From positions 1 to 33,854 of the forward strand of contig NZ_CAMCEC010000024.1 of the NCBI RefSeq assembly GCF_945873775.1: a stretch of DNA of 33,854 nucleotides, written 5' to 3'. The notes beneath the pieces were generated by a model, which did no database searches, was not told the origin of the DNA, and saw only the letters and a program-made list of their open reading frames with translations. Below, piece after piece: positions 8,064 through 33,854 of the stretch. The position numbers and the translations under genes were made by a program. Source of the stretch: an uncultured Treponema sp. (GTDB taxonomy: Bacteria; Spirochaetota; Spirochaetia; Treponematales; Treponemataceae). Numbering within the stretch: the stretch's first letter is position 1; every line of letters begins with the position of its first letter.

Positions 8064-8193
8064 AGCTTAGGGATTGGAGCTCCTGCTAAGCAGTTCCGAA
8101 ACGAAGTGAAGGAATGAGCCGCGGTTAGACGGCGAAGTGCGGAAAGCCCGACGGCGGAGGCGGAGTAAAACGAGCCGTAGCCGGAAGCCCCGG
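8064..8193 (+). repeat. Repeat family D, short form, heading the GNAT gene
   Basis: The copy runs from AGCTTAGGGATTGGAGC to GAAGCCCCGG and contains the conserved core GCGAAGTGCGGAAAGCCC, then GACGGCGGAGGCGGAGT. It lacks the three-hairpin front half found at 9697 and 18191. It is followed by an A-rich stretch and TTTGGAG, which serves as the ribosome binding site of the acetyltransferase at 8220. The rest of the 7871-8219 gap is AT-rich with no gene seen. Confidence 0.7.
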
Positions 8194-8219
8194 AAAAACA
8201 AAAAAATTTGGAGAGAAAA

Positions 8220-8669: not shown

Positions 8670-8712
8670 GCGGGATTCTTCAAATGTGATTATTGCTCGA
8701 CGCAAATTCCGT

Positions 8713-8785
8713 GTCATTCCCGCACTTGATGCGGGAATCCTTTTCGCTACAAGATAAAGATTATCGGGTCAAGCCCGATAATGAC
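8713..8785. repeat. Repeat family A, two-unit copy
   Basis: GTCATTCCCGCACTTGATGC plus GGGAATC forms the first palindrome and TTATCGGGTCAAGCCCGATAA the second, closing with AATGAC. The outer ends GTCATT/AATGAC are inverted. This copy lacks the nested insert seen in others and so shows the uninterrupted form. Confidence 0.8.
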
Positions 8786-8928
8786 AATCAGATACTTGCG
8801 GTTGCCGTTTTTGCAAGGTCTGGCTGGTGGAACTGCGGAAAATTCTGTTTTATAATTTTTGAACCGGTTTTGCGGTCAGGATTTTTGATGCCGCGCCGGA
8901 TTTTTTTGTTGTATTTGGAGGTGCGGAT

Positions 8929-9678: not shown

Positions 9679-9696
9679 TATATGGAAGGCAATGAC

Positions 9697-9950
9697 AGCT
9701 TAGGGCTTCGCATACCTGACGGTATGCTGCGAGATTTTGCTTACGCAAAACTCGGTTATTTTACGTGTGCGCTCACGCGCACGTCCTAAGCTAAAGCTTA
9801 GGGTATGGAGCACTGGCGAAGGTTGTTTGAACAACCGAAGCCAAAGACCGCAGCCGTGCGATTTGCACGACGAGGACTTAGAGCGTGAGCGAAGTGCGGA
9901 ACGCCCGACGGCGGAGGCGGAGTGAAACGAGCCGCAGCCAGAAGCCCCGG
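9697..9950 (+). repeat. Repeat family D, long form with cloverleaf front half
   Basis: Arms AGCTTAGG (9697-9704) and CCTAAGCT (9785-9792) enclose three perfect or near-perfect hairpins at 9710-9727, 9730-9754 and 9767-9782, with loops TGAC, TTAC and TCAC. A second half (9795-9950) starts AGCTTAGGG and contains GGTTGTT/AACAACC and CGTGCGA/TGCACG hairpins and the conserved core, ending GAAGCCCCGG. From 9697 to about 9923 it matches the copy at 18191 with one mismatch seen. GGAGG for the 9982 gene follows 16 bp later. Confidence 0.85.
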
Positions 9951-16332: not shown

Positions 16333-16446
16333 GTCATTCCCATACTTGATTTCTATGTCATCTTCGGGCTTGACCCGAAGATCTGTTGCATAAGATTGCT
16401 GACCGAGTTTGCTTCGCAAACATCGCGTGTCAAGCCCGGCAATGAC
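16333..16446. repeat. Repeat family A copy with nested palindrome
   Basis: The copy runs from GTCATTCCC to CCCGGCAATGAC. A complete unit (TCTTCGGGCTTGACCCGAAGA) is followed by a second unit whose arm is split at 16399-16426 by GACCGAGTTTGC-ttc-GCAAACATCGC. It fills the gap between the amidohydrolase and the convergent surface lipoprotein and may act as a bidirectional terminator. Confidence 0.75.
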
Positions 16447-16474
16447 AAAAAAATTAAGAGTGCAATGACAGAGC

Positions 16475-18154: not shown

Positions 18155-18190
18155 TGAGGAATTGTAAAAAGAGCTGCCGCTTGCACTGTC

Positions 18191-18457
18191 AGCTTAGGGC
18201 TTCGCATACCTGACGGTATGCTGCGAGATTTTGCTTACGCAAAACTCGGTTATTTTACGTGTGCGCTCACGCGCACGTCCTAAGCTAAAGCTTAGGGTAT
18301 GGAGCACTGGCGAAGGTTGTTTGAACAACCGAAGCCAAAGACCGCAGCCGTGCGATTTGCACGGCGAGGACTTAGAGCGTGAGCGAAGTGCGGAACGCCC
18401 GACGGCGGAGGCGGAGTGGAACGAAGTGAAATGCAGGCAACCGACGGAAGCCCCTGA
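18191..18457 (+). repeat. Repeat family D, long form, second copy
   Basis: The copy has the same AGCTTAGG/CCTAAGCT closing stem (18191-18198, 18279-18286) and three TNAC-loop hairpins as the copy at 9697, and is nearly identical to it through about 18417. The tail then differs (GGAACGAAGTGAAATGCAGG) before GAAGCCCC. Between the A-rich end and the TTTGGAGG binding site this copy has about 45 extra bases carrying a promoter, absent from the copies at 8064 and 9697. Confidence 0.85.
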
Positions 18458-20394: not shown

Positions 20395-20439
20395 AGAGAT
20401 TTGCGTCGCATTTGCACGAGAATGACATAAAACTAGCCT

Positions 20440-20596
20440 GTCATTGTCGTGCTTGACGCGACAATCTATTTGTAACCAATTGAATAGATTCCCGCATCAA
20501 GTGCGGGAATGACATTATGGCGATTTGTCATTGTCGGACTTGATCCGACAATCTAATGTGTTGTTAGAGTTTCCTGTGTCATGGAACAGGAATGAC
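20440..20596. repeat. Two tandem family A repeats
   Basis: Copy one (20440-20513) runs from GTCATTGTCGTGCTTGACGC to CGGGAATGAC. Copy two (20527-20596) runs from GTCATTGTCGGACTTGATCC to ACAGGAATGAC. Each contains two hairpins with CTTGA- or TCAAG-type loops. They lie in a 460-bp gene-free stretch (20395-20857) that is built almost wholly of repeats. Confidence 0.8.
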
Positions 20597-20607
20597 AAGA
20601 AAACAAG

Positions 20608-20679
20608 AGGTGGTTGAGCCTGCCGAAACCACCTAATTTACAGAGTTCATTTCGACAAGCTCAATGAGCTCTGTAAATT
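20608..20679. repeat. Family B palindrome and adjacent long palindrome
   Basis: GGTGGTT (20609-20615) and AACCACC (20627-20633) form a palindrome around GAGCCTGCCGA. The same 25 bases occur inverted inside hsdS at 30448-30472. Next to it, AATTTACAGAG (20635-20645) and CTCTGTAAATT (20669-20679) form an 11-bp stem around a TTTCGACAAGCTCAATG core. Both look like REP-type elements. Confidence 0.75.
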
Positions 20680-20706
20680 GTATAGCCCCAGCAACCTTGC
20701 AAACCG

Positions 20707-20762
20707 TGTCATTGTCGTACTTGATACGCGATGTTTGCGAAGCAAACTCGGTCAGCAATCTT
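20707..20762. repeat. Repeat family A copy with nested palindrome
   Basis: GTCATTGTCGTACTTGATAC is followed at 20727-20754 by the nested insert (GCGATGTTTGC-gaa-GCAAACTCGGTC) and then by AGCAATC where ACGACAATC would be expected. The copy lacks an AATGAC end. It is the last repeat before the promoter at 20805. Confidence 0.7.
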
Positions 20763-20804
20763 CTAAACAAATCCCCAACCAAGTTTTCTATAAAAATTCC
20801 AACC

Positions 20805-25203: not shown

Positions 25204-25440
25204 CTGGGGCTTCCCCTCGCTCTGTTTCGACAAGCGTTGGAGGGGAAACTTCGTCAACGGTCTCAACAACCGCTCGGGTCGGGCGTTCCGCACTTCGCTG
25301 TCCGCTCTAAGTCCTCGCCGTGCAAATCGCACGGCTACGGTCTTTGGCTTCGGTTGTTCAAACAACCTTCGCCAGTGCTTCATGCCCTAAGCTACGTTCG
25401 CACGCTCACTACCGAGTTTTTGCGTTGCAAAAACTCGCAG
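25204..25440 (-). repeat. Repeat family D, inverted copy heading the DUF3795 operon
   Basis: Read on the minus strand it has the hairpin with a TTTTTGC-aac-GCAAAAA stem, AGCTTAGGGCATGAAGC, GGTTGTT/AACAACC, CGTGCGA/TGCACG, the core GCGAAGTGCGGAACGCCC, and ends GAAGCCCC. Its front half is shorter than in the 9697 copy. Its tail has taken up a B-like piece (TTGTCGAAAC). The tail ends about 23 bp before the DUF3795 start. Confidence 0.8.
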
Positions 25441-25465
25441 TGAATGTTCCGTAAGTATCTTTTAT

Positions 25466-25563
25466 GTCATTATCGGGCTTGACCCGATAATCAGTTGAAA
25501 AGTTACAGTAGATTGATGACCGAGTTTGCTACGCAAACATCGCAGGTCAAGCTGGGCAATGAC
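25466..25563. repeat. Repeat family A copy with nested palindrome
   Basis: GTCATTATCGGGCTTGACCC to AATGAC, with one intact unit and a second split at 25515-25542 by GACCGAGTTTGC-tac-GCAAACATCGC. It lies between the D element and the stop of the GNAT-DUF3795 gene. Confidence 0.75.
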
Positions 25564-25585
25564 ATTGAGTCGCACCGTTTGCCTG

Positions 25586-26651: not shown

Positions 26652-26733
26652 GTCACGCGGATTTGTGATTTGCTACGTAAATCACTTTTTTTTTTACCGG
26701 CGGATTTCGTAGAAATCTGCAAATCCGTGTGAT
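26652..26733. repeat. Repeat family C, intergenic copy
   Basis: The 82-bp element has inverted ends GTCACGCGGATTTG and CAAATCCGTGTGAT, and two internal palindromes, GTGATTT...AAATCAC (26665-26685) and GCGGATTTC...GAAATCTGC (26700-26720), separated by a T-run. Two closely related copies lie inside hsdS. Confidence 0.8.
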
Positions 26734-26737
26734 TCTT

Positions 26738-26827
26738 TTACCCACCTAGCTTCTCGCCCAGCGGAAGCAGCTCTTCTTCTACTTTCTTATTTATATGGTG
26801 ATAGATGGAATATTTAGCCGCATATAT
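26738..26827 (-). pseudogene. C-terminal remnant of an HsdS specificity subunit
   Basis: The minus-strand reading VEEELLPLGEKLGG stop matches the C-terminus of the intact HsdS at 28960 (EQLLPLCEKLGA). Only about 29 codons are readable before an upstream stop. The DNA around its stop also matches the hsdS 3-prime end. It lies just below the nuclease gene and shows that the island once held a second hsdS or has been rearranged. A family C element follows directly, as in hsdS. Confidence 0.6.
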
Positions 26828-28956: not shown

Positions 28957-28959
28957 ATT

Positions 28960-30570
28960 TTACGCCCCCAGTTTCTCGCACAGCGGAAGCAGCTGCTCGA
29001 TTGCGGCGACTATGCGCTTCTGCTCGGCGAGCGGCGGAAGGGGAACAAGTCCTTTGTATAATTTATCATCATTTATTGCTGGATATGCCACCCCTTTTGC
29101 ATTTTCAGTGTCATTTGCATAATTATCAAACGTTGGCGAAAGCAAATAATAAAATAGGAATTTATTATAAATTGCATCGCAACACGACATTACAGCAAAA
29201 CCTGTACTTGCAATAGGGTCTTCTGAAAAATCTTTATCAATAATGCACATATTGTGAAGGTAAGGTCTAACAGTTGAATAAATAATATCGCCTTTCTTCA
29301 CAATTTTTCTTGCTCGTGATGGTGCTTTTTCTGGCAAAATCAAATTTTCTTTTTCATTCAATTTTTGATTGATATTATCAATAGAGCCGATGTCTATATA
29401 ACTGAATTTTTTATCAGGAGTTTTCTGTCCATTGTTATAAATCAAATCCCCCAGTCTGCACCAGCACCAGTTTTCCGGGATTTCAAACGGAATCTCGTCT
29501 TCTGTGATTGGCGGAAGCTCTTTTTTTGTCACGCTTTTCTTGCCGGCAGATTTCGTAGAAATCTGCAAATCCGTGTGATTCTTTTTTATCTCTGCAAGCA
29601 AGTCTTTTGCGCTGCCTTCGCCTGCAATCTGCGGAACAAGCTTGCCCTGCACGGCTTCCTGCAGAATGGCTTTTTTTACATTGTCTTTAAGCGCGCCTTT
29701 CAGCAGCTCTTTCTGGAGAACCGCATTCTCGTAAGCGTCCACCAGCGGCAGCACCTGCTCAAGCTTTGAGACAATGGCGTTCTGGACAGCGAGAGGGGGA
29801 AGAGGGACAATCATTTTAGATAAAGTCTGTCCATTACAATTCGGCTGTGCAGTTGCAATAGTTCCATTTTTTAATTGATCCCAATAAAGCTGACTTTCCA
29901 TAAACAGTTTCATGTATTTGGGATTCAATTTCTCAAAATCATATTGTGTACGAATTAAGTATCCTGCAAATACAGCATCTTTTAGTTCTTCATCAACTAA
30001 AAATGATTTTCCTACAGTTCCTCCTGTACGGGCAAACAGAATGTCATTTTTTCTTAATTTATAAGTAATTACATCTTCATCGGATATTTCACAAAATGGC
30101 ACGTTTTCCCATTCAACTTTACCGTTTTGAATATCAGTTATTCTGACCATTTTTATCCGACCGCTTTCTTTTGCCGGCGCATTATAACCATATTGAATTG
30201 AATCTGATAATTCACCCCATCTGCACCAGCACCAGTTCTCCGGGATTTCAAACGGAATCTCTTCTTCTGTAATTGGCGGAAGTTCTTTTTTTGTCACGCA
30301 GATTTGTGATTTACTACGTAAATCACTTTTTTTGCCGGCAGATTTCGTAGAAATCTGCAAATCCGTGTGATTCCTTTTTGTTTCTTCAAGCAGTTTTTTA
30401 TTGCGTTCCTCGATAATTCTGTCTAAAAGCTGCCTGCCGGTTTCAATGGTGGTTTCGGCAGGCTCAACCACCGCACTAGCTGGCTCAACCACCGTAGAAA
30501 TCAACTTGCCCGTAACCGCCGCCTGTAGAATCGCTTTTCTTAAGCTCGTGTCTTTTTTTATCTGTGTCAA
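28960..30570 (-). CDS. hsdS: Type I restriction-modification specificity subunit HsdS, 536 aa
   Basis: Two target-recognition half-repeats are visible: TRD1 from ENWCWCRWGEL (about 110) to PLPPLAVQNAIVSKLEQVLP, and TRD2 from ENWCWCRLGDL to PLPPLAEQKRIVAAIEQLLP, joined by conserved helices (KAILQEAVQGKLVPQ). The longer-than-usual length comes partly from in-frame palindromic insertions: residues about 25-41 (VVEPASAVVEPAETT, family B), 67-93 and 331-348 (NHTDLQISTKSAGKK, family C). The start is TTG 30570, 9 bases after AAGGA. It ends 3 bp before the next gene. It sets the DNA specificity of HsdM/HsdR. Confidence 0.88.
   Translation of the reverse strand: MTQIKKDTSLRKAILQAAVTGKLISTVVEPASAVVEPAETTIETGRQLLDRIIEERNKKLLEETKRNHTDLQISTKSAGKKSDLRSKSQICVTKKELPPITEEEIPFEIPENWCWCRWGELSDSIQYGYNAPAKESGRIKMVRITDIQNGKVEWENVPFCEISDEDVITYKLRKNDILFARTGGTVGKSFLVDEELKDAVFAGYLIRTQYDFEKLNPKYMKLFMESQLYWDQLKNGTIATAQPNCNGQTLSKMIVPLPPLAVQNAIVSKLEQVLPLVDAYENAVLQKELLKGALKDNVKKAILQEAVQGKLVPQIAGEGSAKDLLAEIKKNHTDLQISTKSAGKKSVTKKELPPITEDEIPFEIPENWCWCRLGDLIYNNGQKTPDKKFSYIDIGSIDNINQKLNEKENLILPEKAPSRARKIVKKGDIIYSTVRPYLHNMCIIDKDFSEDPIASTGFAVMSCCDAIYNKFLFYYLLSPTFDNYANDTENAKGVAYPAINDDKLYKGLVPLPPLAEQKRIVAAIEQLLPLCEKLGA
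29528..29579. repeat. Repeat family C copy inside hsdS (short form)
   Basis: The copy keeps the ends GTCACGC and CAAATCCGTGTGAT and the GCAGATTTC...GAAATCTGC palindrome but lacks the first palindrome. Its 52 bp are 27 bp (nine codons) less than the other hsdS copy, so the reading frame is kept. It encodes residues 331-348. Confidence 0.8.
30293..30371. repeat. Repeat family C copy inside hsdS (full form)
   Basis: All parts of the intergenic 82-bp copy are present in 79 bp: ends GTCACGCAGATTTG and CAAATCCGTGTGAT, GTGATTTAC-tac-GTAAATCAC and GCAGATTTC-gta-GAAATCTGC. It encodes residues about 67-93 of HsdS in frame, in the linker before TRD1. Confidence 0.85.
30448..30494. repeat. Repeat family B copy inside hsdS with tandem duplication
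   Basis: GGTGGTT (30448-30454) and AACCACC (30466-30472) enclose TCGGCAGGCTC, the exact inverse of the intergenic element at 20609. GGCTCAACCACCG then recurs 21 bp (seven codons) on, giving the peptide VVEPASAVVEPAE in frame. Confidence 0.8.
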
Positions 30571-30694: not shown

Positions 30695-32185
30695 CTACAG
30701 CTCAATTCCAAGAATCTCGGTGATTTTTTTTAGCGTGGAGCTTATTTTTTCGTCTGCGGCTTGGCTGTGCTTTTTGTAGTTCTGGATTGTTTTCGCAATG
30801 CTCAGTATTTCCTCTTCCTCGTGAGGGTAGCCGCAAAGGTCAAGGTTGCAGTCATTGTCGAGCAGTTCCTTTGTGGTGTACTTTTTGGCCTTAGGGTTTC
30901 CGTCGGAATCAAGAAGTTCTTTTCTGTTGTTCCACCAGTCAATGCAGCCGTCAAAGTGCTTTAGTTCCATCGGCTTCGTCTTGCTGAAGTGCTTGCGGTC
31001 GCTTGGAATGTCCACGCGGTAAAACCAGGTTTCGCCTGAAGGCTCTTCATTGTTGAAGAACAGGATGTTTGTTGTGATTGAAGTGTACGGACTGAACACA
31101 CTTCCCGGCAGGCGGACAATTGTGTGCAGATTAAAATCTGTAAGAAGTTTTTTCTTCAGATTGTTTTTTGCGTTGTCGTTTCCAAATAAAAATCCGTCCG
31201 GAACAATCACTGCGGCGCGACCTTTTTTTTTCAGGCGGTACATGATGACTGCCATAAACAAATCCGCTGTCTCGCTTGAACGCAGGTCGGCTGGAAAATT
31301 CTGCTTGATGTCTTCCTTTTCGCTTACGCCGTAAGGTGGGTTCATAAGGATTACGTCGAATGCGTCTTTTTCCGTGTAGTCCAGAAGTTTTTTTGTAAGT
31401 GAGTTTCCGTGGAATACTTTCGGGCTGTCGATTCCGTGAAGAAGCATATTTGTTACGCAGAGCATATACGGAAACTGTTTTTTTTCGACCGCATAAATTG
31501 AGTTGTAAAGTTTTTCTGATTCTTCGTTTGAAATGCTGCCCTTTGCATCTTTTATCGCCTCAAGTTCCTTTATCCAGTTTGAAAGAAATCCGCCGGTTCC
31601 GCAGGCAAAGTCCGCCATGTTTTCGCCAATCTGCGGCCTTATCATTTTTGCCATGAACTGAGTTACGGCTCTTGGCGTGTAGAATTCGCCCGCGCTTCCC
31701 GCGCTCTAGAGTTCTTTTAGAATTGTTTCGTAAATCTCGCCGAATGCGTGGGTTTCCTCGTAGCTTCCAAAATCAAGCTCGTCGATAATGTTCACAATCT
31801 GGCGCAGAAGAACGCCGTCTTTCATGTAGTTGTTCGCGTCTTCAAAAGTTGTGCGCACAATTGACTGGCGGATTGGAGTTTCCGGAGTAACTTCAAGTGA
31901 TTTTAGCGTGGGAAAAAGCTTGTTGTTTACAAAGTTCAAAAGATTGTCGCCGGTAAGATCTTCGTTCTGGTTTTCTGAATGCGCCCAGTTTCTCCATCTT
32001 AAATCTTCTGGAATAATTGATTCATATTTTTCATCTTCAAATTCCCAGTCCTCTTCCTTTGCGTCATAAACTTTCAAGAAAAGCATCCAGACAATCTGCT
32101 CAATCCGCTGCGCATCGCCGTTAATGCCGGCATCGTTCCTCATTACATCGCGAATGCGTTTTACAAAGCCGCTTAAATTGCTCAT
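30695..32185 (-). pseudogene. hsdM: Type I methyltransferase HsdM with in-frame TAG, 496 codons
   Basis: The N-terminal domain (SNLSGFVKRIRDVMRND...IEQIVWMLFLKVYD) is followed by SAM-binding FACGTGGFLSNWI and catalytic NPPYG. The reading frame is open except for TAG at 31706-31708 between YETILKEL and SAGSAGEFYTPRAV; family members read LQSAGNAGEFYTPR here, so CAG (Gln) probably became TAG. AGGCAGGAAA precedes ATG 32185. Without suppression or restart the methylase is lost, which would also silence restriction or leave DNA unprotected. It lies 36 bp after hsdR and ends in TAG. Confidence 0.85.
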
Positions 32186-32221
32186 TTTATTTCCTGCCTT
32201 TTTTGGTTAAGTTATTGTCTA

Positions 32222-33854
32222 TCATGCTGCGTAAATTTCTTTTTCAAGTTCCTTTATAGCCTGCCTGTAATTTTTGTTTCCGCCGAACAGGGCTGCAATG
32301 CGGGCGGGCTTTCCGTATTTTGTGAACGGATTCTGCTTTAGTATTTCTGTTGACTCAATGTCGTAAATGCCAAGCTCCGCGTATTTGTCCAAAAGCGCGT
32401 TGATTACTTCTTTTGCTGCCTCGCCATACTTTCCGAACAGGCCGCGTTTTTTTACGTTGTTCACACGCTCGCGCCGGGTAAGCGGTTTTTGGTCGAACGC
32501 GATGTGGCAGATAAAATCAAAGTCATCAACATCTGTCATGTTCTGGTCTTTTTTTATAAGCTCAAGGTCGATTCCTTTTTCCTTCAGCATATTGCGGATA
32601 ACTTCTTTTTTCTGCTCCTCGTTCCAAGTCTGAATAAAATTGTCCAATGTCTGATAAGCTCCGATTATGCTTTCTTTTGTGTAATCCTCAATCGATTCCT
32701 GCTTTAAAAGCTTGCCGTCTGTGTCATAAATAGAAACAAGCCGCTGCAAAACCTTGATTTTGATTCCGCCCTTGCCGACAATTTGAACTGATTTTTTGTT
32801 TCTGCCGTTCTCTCCTGAATCTGTGGAATCTTCTGAACTTTCAGAATTTGTTTTGCTGACTTTACCGGCACTATTTTCTTGCGAAGAATTTCCGAATTCT
32901 TCATCCTGCTCAATTTCTCCGTCCCATTCTGGGTCTGCAAAAAGTCGGCTCACTCGGCGGAAGTCCATAATCGCAAAATGAGTTTTTCCTTCGTCGTAGC
33001 GCAGGCGTGTTCCACGCCCGATTATCTGCTTGAACTCTGTCATGGAATTTATAAACTCGTCGATTACAATCAGCTTTACCATCTTGCAGTCAGAGCCGGT
33101 CGAAAGAAGCTTTGAAGTTGTGGCAATCACAGGATATTTTTCCCTTACGGAAATAAAATAGTCCAGTTTTTCCTTGCCGTATTTGTCGCTTCCTGTAATG
33201 CGGACAACATACTACTCCTTTACGTTTCCGTTCGCATCGCGCAAAATCATGTCTGTGTTCAGATTGTTCAGAGTGACTCTCATTCGTTCAGCGGCATCTT
33301 CTGTAGGGCAAAAAACGATTGTCTTTGACATTCTGTCTGTTTCTTTCAAATACTTTGTGATTTCCGCCGCGACTTCATCGATTCTGTCCTGAACAATTAT
33401 GTTGTAATCATAGTCGGAAAGACCATATTCGCGGTCTTCAATCTCTTTTCCATAAATATCTTTCTGACCTTTCTTTGGCCGCCAGCCGTCATCAATATTT
33501 GTGTGAACATTTATGACTTTGAACGGAGCTAAAAATCCGTCTTCAATTCCCTGCTTTAGGCTGTATGAATAAACCGGCTCTCCAAAATAGTCGATGTTTG
33601 AGACATACTTTGTTTCCTTTGGAGTTGCAGTCATTCCGATTTGCGTTGCGCTGTTAAAGTAGTCAAGAATTTTCCGCCAGCGGGAATCTGCTTTTGCTGA
33701 GCCACGATGACATTCATCAACAATAATCAGGTCGAAAAAATCCGAATCAAAAAATTCTTTGTACTTTGAAACTTCCAGTTCAATTTCTTCTTCTGTTTCT
33801 TTATAATAAGCCTCAGATTTAGACACGGAGGAGAAAAAATAACGAATTTGTGCT
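32222..33854 (-). pseudogene. hsdR: Type I restriction subunit HsdR, 3-prime part with in-frame TAG, cut by window edge
   Basis: Helicase motifs are visible: [10 protein letters not shown] (Walker B/DEAH), GMTATP (motif III), and IIGRGTRLR (motif VI). The frame runs open from the window edge ([14 protein letters not shown]) to TGA 32222, except TAG at 33212-33214 between ANGNVKE and YVVRITGSDKYGKEKLDYFI. The 5-prime part with the nuclease domain is outside. HsdR translocates DNA and cuts it away from the site. With the similar TAG in hsdM, the restriction system is probably inactive. The GTG at 33824-33826 is not the true start. Confidence 0.85.

Follow-up and report, generated by a model that had tools for sequence, protein, structure and literature searches.

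A palindromic repeat family in Treponema that occurs in frame in HsdS and other conserved proteins, and its relationship to a form carrying a GxxExxY gene

Rickettsia palindromic elements (RPEs) are coding repeats that lie in frame within genes, and one host enzyme, guanylate kinase, has been shown to be active; target-site duplication has not been established for these elements (PMC2229807, PMC10969869). Here we describe a repeat family in Treponema that, like the RPEs and the coding palindromes of Wolbachia, consists of short palindromic repeats found both between genes and fused within unrelated conserved proteins. The Treponema element is shorter (71-97 bp, as against 105-146 bp for RPEs) and belongs to a different phylum; moreover, unlike RPEs, it keeps its loops fixed while its stems vary and covary, it has a form with a GxxExxY gene, and several unrelated palindrome families share a single GltB site in Treponema. 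With REP sequences and REPINs it shares a pair of inverted hairpin units and a conserved motif at their ends, but its stems are not conserved in sequence, it occurs in frame in genes and, in contrast to REP/REPIN systems with a RAYT, it shows no association with a Y1 transposase. The original prediction, made from the sequence alone, likened the element to RPEs. As an analogy this is supported by the in-frame copies in GltB, CarB, AsnB and ABC proteins, but the encoded peptide is not matched by the RPE1 domain model (TIGR01045), which gave no match above its cut-off in 39 genus genomes and none in the genome from which this sequence comes. We found no prior description of palindromic elements in Treponema in the literature searched, mostly papers available without subscription, and novelty is accordingly provisional.

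The window, by which we mean the whole 33,854-nt stretch of DNA that was analysed, comes from an uncultured Treponema sp. and contains the following features:

28960-30570, minus strand: hsdS, encoding a type I specificity subunit of 536 aa; host gene of element copies 1 and 2
30293-30371, minus strand: element copy 1, in frame in hsdS (about residues 67-93) before the first target-recognition domain (TRD1); outer ends at 30293-30305 and 30359-30371, with two inner hairpins (30306-30326 and 30338-30358) separated by a spacer
29528-29579, minus strand: element copy 2, truncated, in frame in hsdS (residues 331-348) before TRD2; single inner hairpin at 29546-29566
26652-26733, no strand assigned: intergenic element copy, with hairpins at 26665-26685 and 26700-26720
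26736-26772, minus strand: 37-nt relic resembling the 3' end of hsdS (LLPLGEKLGG-stop), 86% identical to 28958-28994
30695-32185, minus strand: hsdM, 86% identical to its paralogue on contig C44, with one in-frame TAG; context, outside the element
32222-33826, minus strand: part of hsdR, with one in-frame TAG; context, outside the element

The element had been predicted to have inverted ends and two inner palindromes, and to occur once between genes and twice in hsdS. All three copies stand, although the one at 29528-29579 is truncated and has only one hairpin. From the sequence and a comparison of the repeats, the outer arms of the window copies read GTCACGC(A/G)GATTTG / CAAATCCGTGTGAT and the inner palindromes GTGATTTACTACGTAAATCAC and GCAGATTTCGTAGAAATCTGC. 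When folded as single-stranded DNA, each of the three copies outperforms all 200 of its shuffles (z = -5.0, -5.0 and -3.5). An Rfam search gave no match, and a tRNA search of the window found none.

Translation of hsdS bears out the expected segments, NHTDLQISTKSAGKKSDLRSKSQICVT at residues 67-93 and NHTDLQISTKSAGKKSVT at residues 331-348, each located 10-15 residues ahead of the conserved start of a TRD (IPFEIPENWCWCR). TRD2 aligns with the solved structure 3okg from residue 359 on; in a structure model of HsdS the inserts are the lowest-confidence coil, and this model (mean pLDDT 49) is too weak to use. The nine-codon difference between the two copies, which had also been predicted, equals one inner hairpin lost from the TRD2 copy, as read from the sequence. 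Since the two halves of hsdS are alike beyond the element on both sides (86 nt at 94% identity on one side, and 75 nt at 91% across the other), the two copies probably represent one insertion that was duplicated within the gene; the claim of two insertions thus holds for the number of in-frame copies but probably not for independent events, and duplication or conversion inside hsdS is the probable origin of the second copy. Element copies likewise precede the TRDs in the HsdS proteins of relatives (e.g. L207). The same segments in unrelated HsdS proteins would point to an ordinary part of the protein; instead, a distant HsdS (L311; 30% identity) and element-free Treponema HsdS proteins have a linker of the ordinary KEKAKLIKEGKIKKEK type. 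The inserts in hsdS are not cleanly inserted but take the place of part of the linker, which counts against the explanation that we prefer. A search of viral contigs returned one HsdS relative.

The intergenic copy adjoins the hsdS relic, such that it might have been no more than a fragment of hsdS. However, genome G084 has an orthologous intergenic element without the relic and with a different downstream gene, indicating that the intergenic copy exists independently of hsdS. In G084, another repeat is nested between the hairpins of this element (L029, 1501-1764). A search of the window's own genome with an 88-nt copy as query returned the three window copies and one on contig C44 (75% identity), which has a second hsdM-hsdS locus whose HsdS carries the element, with different inner hairpins, before each TRD; a structure model gave eight two-strand matches, equal to four elements, including, among the matches listed, those on C44. 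The element is therefore tied to hsdS loci in its own genome: coding copies there are confined to hsdS.

Apart from their single TAG codons, the frames of hsdM and hsdR (30695-33826) are open, and the C44 hsdM has glutamine where the window hsdM has TAG; judging from these frames, the restriction-modification locus in the window may be inactive. The window also contains two other dispersed repeat families, one at 9689-9930, 18183-18424, 25278-25393 and 8132-8219 (up to 98% identity over 242 nt), and another at 1294-1396, 8712-8801, 16350-16447, 20439-20764 and 25449-25564 (copies about 77-93% identical).

Across the genus, the ends of the family, TCACACGGATT and AATCCGTGTGA, bracket two hairpins with covarying stems and loops of C-TAAC-G or C-TAC-G. 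A pattern requiring exact ends matched 14 of 98 genus genomes, with no matches for the reversed control, and at least 119 stretches in the species collection. The structure model places the element in 39 of the 98 genomes, mostly metagenome assemblies, with more than 20 copies in some; these per-genome counts are lower bounds set by the number of candidates scored. We collected 117 unique sequences, from which a match in Bacillus siamensis (L110) and two others (L158 and L180) were removed as not belonging to the family, leaving 114 members. Perfectly paired stems at least 6 bp long were found in 186 of the 234 element halves, and in one after shuffling of the interiors; the loop is CTAACG in 124 and CTACG in 49, and there are 44 distinct stems. 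The covariation score was 0.329, versus 0.109 for shuffled sequences and no more than 0.182 when the structures were slid; thus, the stems differ while pairing is kept.

On the complementary strand, the loops read GTA and GTTA, closed by a C-G pair. GNA and GNNA loops form very stable DNA hairpins, and the loops of the element may be of a similar kind, which would fit a single-stranded DNA intermediate. Matches to the pattern also occur in Bacteroidales, Fibrobacter and Clostridia, and may be mis-binned. In rumen genomes of Neisseriaceae (L136, L145, L165, L188, L193, L198 and L200), the element is part of a longer fixed unit beside AGGCAGCCTGAA repeats, which look to us like the Neisseriaceae DNA uptake sequence; given these neighbours, the Neisseriaceae copies are probably not mis-binned.

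Twenty-seven of the 114 members are in frame within long reading frames, a set selected for being in frame; gene-breaking copies would have been placed with those lying outside genes. Among the hosts, CarB, GltB, AsnB and an ABC exporter are confirmed by Pfam, while other host names, such as methyltransferases, come from reading the sequences. The element is dispersed in both intergenic and coding DNA, and its in-frame hosts are conserved proteins unrelated to one another, with orthologues that lack the insert; in these respects it is an RPE-like coding palindrome. For one GltB loop with 20 readable orthologues, seven are empty, five have the Treponema element family, six have other palindrome-like inserts of four kinds, and two have short unclassified inserts; in the GltB of the window's own genome, an alignment gap implies an empty site. 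The other palindrome-like inserts at this site (L264, L265, L266, L268, L270 and L276) are also in frame, and read LGGGSLPLA.., HAELVSAS..KQVRGD, PCLTRE..SSPTMT and VPEPVEG. Copies outside genes have a mean of 0.84 open frames, compared to 0.86 when shuffled, so the reading frame is not built into the element, and copies are filtered after insertion.

Inverted terminal repeats, as expected of a MITE, are evident from the exact-ends, stem and covariation analyses. An offset scan of element flanks found no clear target-site duplication; the best among 225 offsets was a weak -3/+3 identity (z = 3.5). In the sister pair G020/G037, the compared stretches scarcely aligned, and no exact empty site was found.

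In several relatives, a GxxExxY gene lies exactly between the two hairpins, so that the short element resembles a miniature version of one that bears GxxExxY. In L222 (same contig as L098), the element around the gene has the ends of the family and lies in an hsdR-hsdM gap; the same arrangement, but with GCCACACGG as an end, is seen in L217 and L218, while L223, L225 and L226 show variants of it. By model match, the gene belongs to the GxxExxY proteins (TIGR04256 at 1.4e-43; PF13366 at 3.4e-40), and is PD-(D/E)XK-like. An exact flanking inverted repeat of at least 12 bp was found for 15 of 28 GxxExxY genes in the genus but only 12 of 2000 controls; across the phylum the enrichment is weaker (5 of 22, versus 18 of 2000). 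PF13366 is also more common in genomes that have the element (odds ratio 3.4, p = 0.011, ignoring the kinship of the genomes). However, the window's own genome and several high-copy genomes (G023, G096 and G072) gave no PF13366 match, such that GxxExxY may be a passenger. A structure model of the protein (mean pLDDT 46) is too weak to use, a sequence search of solved structures gave only marginal S100 matches, and the viral contig search gave one weak relative. GxxExxY genes outside the element family (L208, L210, L219, L224, L227-L232 and L339) have flanking inverted repeats of the CACAGATT, CACAGAG or CGCAGAT type. In full-text literature searches, with subscription papers mostly outside their reach, the name GxxExxY turned up in only two papers, and the function and inverted-repeat setting of these proteins were undescribed.

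Could the copies in hsdS be recombination sites that are kept for shuffling of TRDs, and hence for phase variation? Their position ahead of each TRD, which recurs in relatives' HsdS, and the near-identical flanks in the two halves of hsdS would fit such a role, but inspection of the window ORFs by eye revealed neither a silent TRD cassette nor a recombinase. Moreover, the same element is found between genes and in GltB, CarB and other proteins, such that any recombination within hsdS would be no more than a side effect, and we consider this explanation unlikely. The architecture, with two inverted hairpin units and a conserved end, also resembles that of REPINs, pairs of inverted hairpins that are moved, like REP sequences, by a Y1 (HUH) transposase. 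Yet the genome of the window lacks Y1_Tnp (PF01797), as do most of the genomes with many copies (G004, G020, G023, G050 and G096), and the two show no association across genomes (odds ratio 1.5 for Y1_Tnp and the element, p = 0.46), making mobilisation by a RAYT very unlikely. Lastly, the length of the HsdS linker differs from family to family, such that the inserts could be ordinary linker with incidental palindromes; the covariation of the stems, the in-frame copies in unrelated enzymes and the existence of intergenic copies make this extremely improbable.

We think it likely, instead, that the repeat is a miniature palindromic mobile element, similar to a MITE, that lies in frame in tolerant loops and is probably derived from the GxxExxY-bearing form. 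It consists of two inverted units separated by a short spacer, each with the conserved end TCACACGGATT and then a hairpin with a free stem and a fixed loop. Such an element would insert at many chromosomal sites, with surviving copies being mostly intergenic; where it is open in the frame of the host gene and falls in a tolerant loop, it could persist as an in-frame peptide. In hsdS, it sits in the flexible linker before a TRD. In the window, recombination between the repeated halves of the gene probably carried the element into the second linker as well, and the TRD2 copy would then have lost one hairpin. The short form probably comes from the longer one, in which a GxxExxY (PF13366) gene separates the same two hairpins; the GxxExxY protein is the best candidate for a mobilising nuclease. 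We propose more tentatively, and with somewhat less than even confidence, that GxxExxY genes mark palindromic mobile elements of a widespread and undescribed class, the miniatures of which insert in frame into proteins, and that GxxExxY acts on the hairpin ends to move both forms.

Coding palindromes that lie in frame have been described in Rickettsia and Wolbachia, and gut spirochaetes provide a second, richer instance. With sites both empty and filled, hairpins that covary and a form that has a nuclease-like gene, this instance would make the question of mobilisation testable, and the GxxExxY family could gain a first role.
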